Origin: Hyphomicrobiales bacterium
GTDB taxonomy: Bacteria > Pseudomonadota > Alphaproteobacteria > Rhizobiales > Methyloligellaceae
DNA: 64,000 bases
Reading direction: 5' to 3'
NCBI GenBank assembly: GCA_021775595.1
Contig: JAJFHN010000041.1
Coordinates: 1 to 64,000, forward strand
The position numbers and the translations under genes were made by a program. The notes under the pieces are model-generated. The model was not told the DNA's origin and did not search any database. It saw nothing but the letters and a program-made list of their open reading frames with translations. Within the stretch, counting starts at the first letter, position 1; the number at the start of each line of letters is the position of its first letter. Positions 45,824-48,456 of the stretch are shown one piece after another.

Positions 45824-47152
45824 CTAGCTTGCGGTCGCCGCGAGGGCATTGACCGCTTCGTCCGGACTCAATGACTGGCGATCGCCGCTCGCCCTGTTCT
45901 TCAACTCGACTTGGCCCTCTTTTAGGCCCTTAGGGCCAACGATCAACTGCCATGGCAAGCCGATCAGGTCCATGCTCTTAAATTTGGCGCCGGCGCGCTC
46001 GTCGGTGTCGTCGTAGAGCACGTCGAGCTTGGCACCAAGACACTTGTTGTACAAATCTTCGCAAGCGCCATCGGTGGACTCGTCACCGGGCTTGAGATTG
46101 ATCAGGCCAAGATCGAACGGCGCCACTTGCGCTGGCCAGACGATGCCCGCCTCATCATGCGAGGCTTCGATGATTGCGCCCACCAAGCGCGATACGCCAA
46201 TTCCATAAGAGCCGCTTTGAACGGTTATCAGTTTGCCGTCGGCTCCTTGGACGTGGCATTTCATCGGCTCGGAATACTTTGTGCCAAAGAAAAAGATGTG
46301 GCCAACTTCGATGCCACGGGCAGAAAGCCGCCTGTTTTCAGGCACCTCCTTCTCAAACCGCGCCGCGTCATGCATATCTTCGGTGGCCGCATATTTGGCC
46401 GTCCATTGCTCGATCACCGGCGTGAGGTCGCCGTCAAAATCGATATCGTCACTTGGTGCATCGAGCGCAACCAGATCAGCATCACAAAATACGGCGCTCT
46501 CGCCGGTATCGGCCAGAATGATGAATTCGTGGCTCAAATCGCCGCCAATGGGGCCGGTCTCGGCGATCATGGGGATGGACTTGAGACCCATACGTTCGAA
46601 GGTTCGCAGATAAGCGACAAACATCTTGTTGTAGGAGCGTTTGGCGTCTTCGACGCTGAGATCGAAGGAATAGGCGTCTTTCATTAGAAATTCGCGGCCC
46701 CGCATCACGCCAAAGCGCGGCCGGATCTCGTCGCGGAATTTCCATTGAATGTGATAGAGATTGCGCGGCAAATCGCGATAGGAGCGCACGGCGTTGCGGA
46801 AAATCTCCGTGATCAGCTCCTCATTGGTAGGGCCATAGAGCATATCGCGGTCATGCCGGTCGCTGATGCGCAGCATTTCCTGGCCATAATCGTCGTAGCG
46901 ACCGCTTTCACGCCATAGATCGGCGGACTGGATGGTCGGCATCAACAATTCGATCGCACCCGCCCGATCCTGCTCTTCACGGACGATCTGCTCAATTTTC
47001 TTCAGAACGCGAAAGCCAAGCGGCAGCCAGGAATAGATTCCGGCGCTCGCCTGGCGCACCAGGCCGGCGCGCAGCATCAAGCGATGGGAGACAATCTCCG
47101 CTTCCTTGGGATCGTCGCGCAGTATCGGCAAAAAAAAGCGGCTGAGGCGCAT
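45824..47152 (-). CDS. proS: Prolyl-tRNA synthetase, short form
   Basis: ProS charges tRNA-Pro. The 442-residue protein starts at 47152 ([20 protein letters not shown]); 31 more codons are open upstream but are not family-like. Class II motifs are visible: [18 protein letters not shown] (motif 1), [20 protein letters not shown] (motif 2), and [16 protein letters not shown] (motif 3). It lacks the roughly 180-residue editing insertion of the E. coli type, which fits the short alphaproteobacterial form. The anticodon domain starts near residue 345. It is followed by lolC and lolD, a conserved trio. Confidence 0.97.
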
Positions 47153-47270: not shown

Positions 47271-47762
47271 TTACTTGGTGGGCGGGAGGCAATCCTTGAC
47301 CAACGGAACGCCGTTTACGTTCAGCTCCCGATTGGCGAGATCGTAATAGATATCGCCGGCGGTCAATTCAGCATGATGGCCGCCGATCCGTTTGTTTCCC
47401 ACGTTGATGTCAATATCCACGGCGGAAGGAGCCCAGCTACTGTATCTGCGGGGCAAATCTGCCGGAATAACCGGATCCCCCCAGGCATCGACGCCCGCTA
47501 CATAATCGGGGCTCATGGCGCAATCGGCTGCGCGGGTGGCCAAAGCTGCTTCGTAATGGTGTTGGTTCGACCAGCGAGGCGCGCGCTGGCGCACGGGTGG
47601 CTGCTTGGAGACATCACGCATGTTGTCATCAAAGCCCGATGCGCCGTTGTAGTCCAAGGCGTCGCTGCGCGCGGTATCGGGCATGCCCATCAGCGTCAGC
47701 GCGATGGCCAGACCAATCAGATAAATCATAATGTATTCAATACGCTGTAGAATCTCATGCAT
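47271..47762 (-). CDS. Unknown exported protein
   Basis: I do not recognise this protein of about 163 residues. Three in-frame Met codons could start it (47780, 47762, 47729); 47762 gives a charged segment MHEILQR before the hydrophobic stretch [15 protein letters not shown], which ends near ARSDA as a possible signal peptide. No start has a good ribosome site. The mature part has two cysteines, one in [11 protein letters not shown] and one in [10 protein letters not shown] near the end, and a central segment [20 protein letters not shown] followed by [17 protein letters not shown]. It is 118 bases upstream of proS. Secretion is inferred; the function is unknown. Confidence 0.55.
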
Positions 47763-47869
47763 AGCGACAAGTGGTAGCACAGTTGCATTAAGAGACGGCT
47801 AATGAGAACGATTTTTCGGCAAGAGCGCTTTGGCAGGCCACCAATCACGCGCTCTGCGACAAATCAGTG

Positions 47870-47898
47870 ATGACACGGCTACGGCCATCGGCTAATAT
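47870..47898 (+). promoter_or_regulatory. Putative promoter of the intergenic RNA
   Basis: ATGACA (47870-47875) and TAATAT (47893-47898) are exactly 17 bases apart, matching the sigma-70 elements at five and four of six positions. It lies on the plus strand, which has no gene here. Transcription would start near 47905. Confidence 0.4.
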
Positions 47899-47904
47899 TT
47901 TTTG

Positions 47905-48146
47905 ATAATCGAAAAAGGCGTCTGGATCGGGAAAATCCCGTGGCATTGCCTTAGAGCAAAGCCGTTGTCCAAGTCCTGGGAGGAAAGACACTCCGGCCAA
48001 GGATCAACTCGATAAAGTTGCAACCGTGGTTCACGTTCAAATGCTTCTCGCCGGTGCCGCGTAATTTGATGGCGAGGTGTTCGCAATTGGACGATCAAGG
48101 AGTTCTTTGACTGGTAAGCAAGGTCCCTCGGACCTTGCTTTTTTTT
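47905..48146 (+). ncRNA. Candidate structured noncoding RNA of unknown class
   Basis: The 409 bases from 47763 to 48171 hold no gene, and on the plus strand they carry a promoter-like site and a strong terminator with about 240 bases between. That stretch can fold: a stem CGGGA/TCCCG at 47928-47940; a stem GGCaTTGC/GCAAaGCC at 47942-47963; a long-range helix GTCCAA (47967-47972) with TTGGAC (48087-48092); and, inside it, CTCGCC (48047-48052) with GGCGAG (48071-48076). No protein frame of note exists; the best is a 13-codon ATG frame from 48069. A GAGGAAAG at 47980 recalls RNase P RNA, but the rest does not. Not tRNA, tmRNA or SRP RNA as far as I can tell; 6S RNA was not excluded by search. 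Confidence 0.5.
48116..48146 (+). terminator. Strong intrinsic terminator
   Basis: An 11-base-pair perfect stem, AAGCAAGGTCC with GGACCTTGCTT, has a three-base loop and is followed by a T-run that reaches eight T including the stem end. It works only for plus-strand transcription, and no plus-strand gene ends here, so it must belong to the intergenic RNA. Confidence 0.9.
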
Positions 48147-48171
48147 GTCCCCGATTCGCCGCCTGCGCGAT

Positions 48172-48456
48172 TTATTGCAGACCGCCTTGCGACTCAAATT
48201 CAGGCAAAAACGGAATTGAGTCGAGCGCCAAGAGTTCATATTCCCACGCGCCATAAAGGGCGGCAAAAATCAGTGCCGACAGAAGCGTTGTGACGGCCAG
48301 CTTGGCGAAAATCCGCGCATTCGCAGGCGCGCTTGCCGTTGTGCCGGGCGCCACGTTGCCTTCCTCTTCTTGGGTTTGCACGCCGACGGGAAGCACGACG
48401 AACAGCACAAGCCACCACAGGATGAAATAGATCGCGACGGCGAGAATGGGCGACAT
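48172..48456 (-). CDS. DUF1467 family small membrane protein
   Basis: This 94-residue protein has two membrane segments, about residues 4-25 (ILAVAIYFILWWLVLFVVLP) and 49-68, joined by a soluble loop with the conserved GVQTQEEEGNVAPGT. The tail is acidic and short. The WWLVLF-to-LPxGVxTQ pattern is typical of DUF1467, a family found mainly in alphaproteobacteria and usually located, as here, between mce and proS. The function is unknown to me. It starts 21 bases after the epimerase gene. Confidence 0.85.
   Translation of the reverse strand: MSPILAVAIYFILWWLVLFVVLPVGVQTQEEEGNVAPGTTASAPANARIFAKLAVTTLLSALIFAALYGAWEYELLALDSIPFLPEFESQGGLQ

Follow-up and report, generated by a model that had tools for sequence, protein, structure and literature searches.

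An sRNA gene on the plus strand of the window (the 64,000-nucleotide stretch of Hyphomicrobiales DNA analysed here) was, near certainly as judged from its sequence, a divergent orthologue of ar9 (SmrC9) overlooked by Rfam's own model, and the whole of the observations was quite probably explained by a stand-alone ar9 RNA acting as a sponge of the sRNA αR8. The layout of the gene, its kinship, its conservation, and its complementarity to αR8 were all established by computation. The ar9 family itself was already known: mapping and blots of SmrC9 date back to 2007 (PMC2780559), and it was pulled down with Hfq in 2010 (PMC2848018). The new point was the pairing mechanism between ar9 and αR8; the literature searched, mainly the main text of freely accessible papers, yielded neither a statement that ar9 pairs with αR8 nor a described ar9 function.

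The sRNA gene and its ar9 relatives

The preliminary description had presented an orphan structured sRNA equipped with a promoter and an intrinsic terminator, on a strand with no gene and in the longest gene-free stretch of the window. A sequence scan recovered both signals on the plus strand (Table 1), namely ATGACA-17-TAATAT and, some 217 bases past it, an 11-pair stem with a run of eight T, and no plus-strand ORF of at least 60 aa was found in 47781-48171; the stretch was the longest gene-free one provided that a 124-aa TTG-start ORF on the minus strand (47892-48266, overlapping DUF1467) was discounted, and was not so otherwise. The scan was weak by itself because its counts barely exceeded those of shuffles (promoter-like sites: 3 vs 0.7 expected; terminator-like sites: 2 vs 1.3), and the gene was taken as real because of conservation, not because of scan counts: [A/G]TGACA-17-TANNNT upstream of the RNA and a matching terminator were present in all 22 family relatives used for covariance model R1 (see below). 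A chance promoter plus terminator, or a leftover, with no RNA gene at all could draw on this slight excess over shuffles and on the divergence of the window copy to under the Rfam cut-off, but such a reading was very improbable against a core, a covarying helix, a promoter, and a terminator kept in relatives at the same place, and given that 87 of the 249 genomes of the order matched RF02343 (ar9) at E<=0.01 (over the cut-off in 42; strict filters).

Table 1. Coordinates of the predicted sRNA, its elements, and its neighbours in the window
Feature	Position	Strand	Remarks
proS	45824-47149		beyond the 47271-47780 small gene as seen from the sRNA
small gene between sRNA and proS	47271..47780	-	no Pfam family
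promoter	47870..47898	+	-35 ATGACA, 17 bases, -10 TAATAT; layout common to 22/22 family relatives
predicted sRNA, about 242 nt	47905..48146	+	divergent ar9 orthologue; start placed from the promoter, +/- few bases
5' arm UGGAU	47923..47927	+	partner in the minimum-energy fold: GUCCA 47967-47971
possible outer-helix arm CAAAG	47957..47961	+	could pair with CUUUG 48105-48109; proposed by eye
conserved core GTCCAAGTCCTGGGAGGAAA	47967..47986	+	antisense to αR8 core
long-range helix, 5' strand ACTCC	47990..47994	+	predicted from the covarying helix in relatives
GGC hairpin region	47995..48031	+	fold and model; homologous helix in relatives with 88.5% of cells paired
family-variable stem domain	48034..48093	+	holds TTGGAC and CTCGCC/GGCGAG; fold
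long-range helix, 3' strand GGAGT	48099..48103	+	predicted from relatives; absent from the window minimum-energy fold
intrinsic terminator	48116..48146	+	11-pair stem and T-run; kept in relatives
DUF1467 gene, conserved neighbour	48172..48456	-	PF07330, 96 bits; near the RNA in 12/12 matched relatives

When 47850-48160 was compared by BLASTN with 61 genomes, 13 gave a match, the window's own among them, mostly over the terminator alone. The match was flanked by DUF1467 and proS in 12/12 relatives, and the relatives' loci shared the layout promoter, GGTCCAAGTCTTGGGAGGAA, and terminator. Seven of these loci were recognised by RF02343 at E<=1 (47.1, 44.0, 42.7, 33.9, 31.6, 28.2, and 28.0 bits) among the 13 searched, one of them over the Rfam cut-off of 45 bits. 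The window gave no Rfam match at gathering cut-offs, and RF02343 at E<=10 detected ar9 neither in this stretch nor elsewhere in the window's genome; matches at E 1.6 to 9 to rli42, L20 leader, HCV SL8001, and Mn riboswitch were dismissed as noise. By comparison, R1, built from the 22 family relatives with the window excluded, found 47966-48146 with 78.7 bits (E 7.4e-21), the next best places in the genome being this terminator read on its opposite strand (21.1 bits) and then an αR8 antisense region (see below). The window RNA was filed as a divergent orthologue and not as an Rfam-scored member because it fell below 45 bits, though a syntenic relative reached 47.1. The Rfam search that the preliminary description had proposed gave no direct ar9 match for the window copy and did identify seven of the syntenic loci.

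In S. meliloti, the RF02343 ar9 RNA corresponds to SmrC9/sra32/SmelC289, detected by Northern blotting and with mapped ends (PMC2573895, PMC2245857, PMC2780559, PMC7143759). Its gene is flanked by SMc01933 and proS and runs opposite to proS (PMC2573895), its promoter reads gaTGAC-n17-CTA.AT upstream of a transcript with mapped ends (PMC2245857), and its length is 149 nt (PMC2780559). The window RNA likewise lay near proS on the opposite strand, with one small gene in between, and the ar9 core, GUCUUGGGAGGA in relatives, read GUCCUGGGAGGA in the window (11/12 letters). In two order genomes (G196 and G052), AAACAGGCA stood close to the predicted start, resembling the mapped sra32 end. A stand-alone sRNA gene of ar9 kinship was near certain, its transcription in this organism being predicted; the orphan label was wrong because the RNA was a divergent copy of ar9/SmrC9, an sRNA found beside proS in many Rhizobiales.

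6S RNA, which the preliminary description had named as the leading known alternative, or another housekeeping RNA would agree with a stand-alone gene of suitable size, but a 6S RNA of this genome was located on another contig (G000:C73:95662-95822, 67.9 bits), and the window contained no 6S match, no Rfam match at gathering score, and, in keeping with the preliminary description, no tRNA or tmRNA; 6S was rejected, and this reading was extremely improbable.

As for the small neighbouring gene, stretches of its 47271-47780 protein were 28.8% and 27.6% identical to proteins at the same place in two relatives (G001 and G009), and the remaining 10 of the 12 loci compared showed no counterpart.

The core was the most conserved part of the RNA. 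Across the order, its 12 letters were exact in 27/30 loci, and the other three ended in G in place of A, still pairing. A core identity of 36/36 was also counted, biased in that these loci were chosen by core pattern, with G190, G227, and G259 (which had no exact core) excluded and analysed separately. The class-wide search with RF02343 gave 0/289, with nothing at all matched, which does not show absence, and no RF02343 match was obtained in the Caulobacter vibrioides control genome. One locus (L034; G012:C7, about 75351) kept the 5' part, core, and terminator of ar9 and had lost the middle; this minimal ar9 stood alongside a canonical αR8 in a 99% complete genome.

Fold and conserved helices

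The 47905-48147 region folded at -84.8 kcal/mol vs -72.3 (sd 4.6) for shuffles (z -2.72; 1/200 shuffles as good), and fold and conservation together supported a structured small RNA, its transcription being predicted. The two 5' hairpins and the CTCGCC/GGCGAG stem seen earlier were present in the minimum-energy fold. The long-range GTCCAA/TTGGAC helix proposed with them did not hold up: it had no counterpart in the 22 relatives, and the window fold paired both of its arms otherwise, TTGGAC being paired locally (48034-48040 with 48087-48093). TTGGAC occurred downstream of the core in 1/23 sequences, the window alone, and upstream in 16/23; the UGGAU arm of the window probably stands in for this upstream TTGGAC. 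The domain at 48034-48093 resembled genus g2 sequences by eye.

The covariation that the preliminary description had suggested seeking in relatives was found in another helix, (A/G)CTCC with GGAG(T/C), and GTCCAA/TTGGAC was not conserved. The (A/G)CTCC/GGAG(T/C) helix had 95.4% of cells paired, both sides were changed at 2/5 pairs, and its end pair was A-U, G-C, or G-U. In alignment A3, 27 drawn pairs were 92.9% formed; all pairing measures were above all 500 shuffles save further pair types (2/500 as high), and all exceeded slid controls, on which the structure was favoured by being hand-drawn on one of the aligned sequences (L007). One sequence, L028, was misaligned at the A3 long-range helix and was scored there as unpaired, and L034, with its missing middle, was left out of every alignment.

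UCC-UGGGA-GGA at 47974-47984 corresponded to the Rfam core hairpin, in which the window substitution would turn a U-G pair into C-G; this hairpin was invariant in A3 and therefore outside the reach of covariation. Folded alone, the window RNA formed no core hairpin and no long-range helix. GGAG 47979-47982 paired with CTCC 47991-47994 in the minimum-energy fold, and because the lone fold preferred this GGAG/CTCC pairing, the long-range helix of the window was drawn from relatives only. The pair CAAAG/CUUUG might possibly replace CGCG/CGCG of other families.

Complementarity between the ar9 core and αR8

The window's genome encoded αR8 (RF00519 suhB) at G000:C73:42190-42265 (74.7 bits), beside an ORF that is probably the canonical N-formylglutamate amidohydrolase neighbour. 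αR8 was over the Rfam cut-off in 29/30 family genomes, weak in the remaining one, and over it in 30/30 ar9-bearing order genomes. The αR8 core of the window's genome, UUUCCUCCCUAGACUUGGGCC, complemented the ar9 core save for G-U pairs and the centre, and such same-genome complementarity was weak in one genus (g73). In S. meliloti, sm8 is suhB (PMC2573895) and MmgR belongs to the αr8 family (PMC7143759); the equation of MmgR (SmelC689) with sm8 rests on matching coordinates in these two sources.

A 20-base core pattern, GTCCAAGTCTTGGGAGGAAA, was searched with up to 3 mismatches in 30 family genomes, with the reversed pattern as control, and it was found at 64 places vs 2 for the control. Two of these places were in the 2.9-Mb genome of the window, one in this RNA with 1 mismatch and the other antisense to αR8 with 2 mismatches. 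The 64 places comprised (i) 29 ar9 cores, 26 seen in context and three (G003, G015, and G017) judged by sequence only; (ii) 22 places antisense to αR8 copies; (iii) nine that looked like one recurrent stretch, of which one was inspected (L154), read by eye as encoding ribosomal protein S1 and having the same sense as ar9, therefore giving no pairing; and (iv) four scattered places. By sequence, the ar9 core was present in 29/30 family genomes and the αR8 antisense pattern in 20/30, eight genus g2 genomes escaping the αR8 pattern because their αR8 has one extra middle base; six of these eight were folded as pairs, and the αR8 sequence was inspected in the other two. R1 also reached the antisense of αR8: its region at G000:C73:42115-42231 on the minus strand (L077; 20.8 bits, E 0.005) overlapped the αR8 gene, a case in which a covariance model pointed to the proposed partner of an sRNA.

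A canonical αR8 core was absent in two of the 30 family genomes, G023 and G026. G023 (80% complete) had its αR8 core rearranged to GTCTCCCTCAGACTT (G023:C119, L283) and was the sole one of the 30 in which no ar9 core was found; a linked loss in this one genome would be only suggestive, and G026 (81% complete), which had ar9 and no canonical αR8 found, counted against such a pattern. A second αR8-like sRNA was seen in the window's genome (L278; G000:C73:83476-83549, 29.4 bits, below the cut-off) with a changed core, GCCTCCCTG, and its own terminator, and secondary αR8 matches near 30 bits recurred in several relatives.

Full-length duplexes, computed with no account of internal structure, were compared with shuffled partners (2/100 as good for the window; 14 and 20/100 in two relatives), and this RNAduplex measure was too noisy and therefore replaced by a test of the 25-nt ar9 core against same-genome αR8 vs background windows, 300 for each genome and 3000 for the window's. 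The background windows were 80-nt pieces of loci from both strands, pieces matching αR8-core patterns being removed. The test covered 49 of the 52 ar9-bearing genomes; G026 was omitted (no canonical αR8), and G196 and G052 were done separately. The window pair reached -32.3 kcal/mol and beat 3000/3000 background windows by a small margin (best -31.6); its core U to C added a mismatch, leaving a 2x2 loop flanked by two 9-bp arms. Stronger pairing than in all own background windows was found for 42/49 same-genome pairs, and the 7/49 pairs not above all background were all from genus g73 (family f44). Duplexes of about 18-23 bp recurred in most same-genome pairs. The S. meliloti-like pairs of G196 and G052 gave -36.8 and -36.3, and in the three genomes with a core ending in G not A, αR8 had an extra A and the ar9 strand was fully paired inside (-39.6).

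Net of opening costs, 36/42 pairs were below zero (window, -9.4), and the 6/42 above zero were all from g73. The cost of opening the seven-base seed ranged from 0.1 to 2.2 kcal/mol for αR8 and from 1.4 to 6.2 for ar9; the 4.9 of the window ar9 was among the higher of the 42. When partners were exchanged between families, the summed pairing became weaker in only 30/45 family pairs, and partner co-variation was therefore rated mild. Within g73 (L055, L056, L058, L061, L064, L065, L067, and L068), the αR8 core read UUUCCUCCUUAGAC and ar9 pairing was weak, mainly the GUCU and GGGAGGA parts being paired; the partnership may be decaying or replaced there.

GGGAGGA by itself also complements CCUCCUCCC of αr14 (motif: PMC10746234), and mRNA targets, fliM and SMc01800, were earlier predicted through nt 60-95 of sra32 (PMC2245857). 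These two points would suit an sRNA that simply pairs with mRNAs, or a decoy for many anti-Shine-Dalgarno sRNAs in general (AbcR, NfeR1/cuckoo) acting via GGGAGGA alone, with αR8 as one partner among many. Such a role was unlikely, as the complementarity exceeded the anti-Shine-Dalgarno motif and ran into AGACUU and the αR8 terminator foot, and as ar15 and ar14 had no match in the window's genome at E<=0.1, whereas its αR8 was over the cut-off. As main partners, both ar15 and ar14 were rejected: at E<=0.1 they were matched in 4/30 and 13/30 family genomes, respectively, none over the cut-off. Two ar14-like (NfeR1-like) sRNAs were noted in G013:C22 and G009:C112 (L084 and L085; 49.2 and 37.2 bits, cut-off 58.8).

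Proposed sponge role and known systems

In the proposed mechanism, the ar9 gene would yield a terminator-ended sRNA of ~240 nt presenting its core as an antisense of the αR8 core, in relatives on a small hairpin framed by the long-range helix. Pairing, probably on Hfq (an hfq gene was present in the window's genome), would start between GGGAGGA and UCCUCCC, which is exposed in αR8, and the duplex would spread via AGUC/GACU into the αR8 terminator foot; the anti-Shine-Dalgarno motif of αR8 would thus be hidden and its mRNA targets freed. The pairing was computed, whereas the function is inferred, as are transcription here, Hfq binding, the order of pairing, sequestration, and the effect on targets; a sponge role of ar9 on αR8 was probable.

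A sponge of αR8 has been described in Caulobacter: CrfA, the G/A-rich hairpin of which pairs with UUUCCUCCCU of SisA-D and which lowers SisA in a largely Hfq-dependent manner (PMC12559287). Complementarity carries no direction, and overexpression of SisA also lowers CrfA (PMC12559287), so the pairing could be real with the direction reversed, αR8 controlling ar9, or could lead to mutual destruction; this was improbable given that CrfA is the sponge in the published case. The sponge role of ar9 would also agree with the reported physiology. Co-precipitation of SmrC9 with Hfq has been reported, the RNA being probed in log phase, its abundance peak (PMC2848018), and it was undetectable in nodules (PMC2780559). 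MmgR is Hfq-dependent, accumulates in stationary phase, and limits PHB granules, and as of the 2020 review no direct mRNA target had been described for it (PMC7143759). A log-phase sponge for a stationary-phase regulator would be coherent.

If true, the functions of SmrC9 and MmgR would be explained together, and a counter-regulator would be assigned to a regulator of carbon storage in nitrogen-fixing bacteria and their relatives. It was fairly likely that ar9 is a dedicated αR8 sponge throughout Rhizobiales and that αR8 sponging is ancient or repeatedly evolved in Alphaproteobacteria and not a Caulobacter peculiarity.

The comparison was applied to four known systems. 6S RNA (RF00013) is likewise a stand-alone structured RNA, but it was sited elsewhere in the genome. 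αR8/RF00519 suhB (MmgR in S. meliloti and SisA-D in Caulobacter) was the complementary partner of ar9 and not its relative. The window RNA shared with RF02343/SmrC9 the proS neighbour on the opposite strand, the promoter type, the GUCUUGGGAGGA core (11/12), the terminator, and the letters of the long-range helix, while it differed in its length (about 242 nt vs 149), one core substitution, an extra variable stem domain, a sub-cut-off score, and the lack of a visible CGCG outer helix. Like CrfA, compared by its published description, ar9 has a G/A-rich element whose predicted partner is the 10-mer UUUCCUCCCU of αR8; unlike that of CrfA, the predicted pairing of ar9 extended to the αR8 terminator foot.
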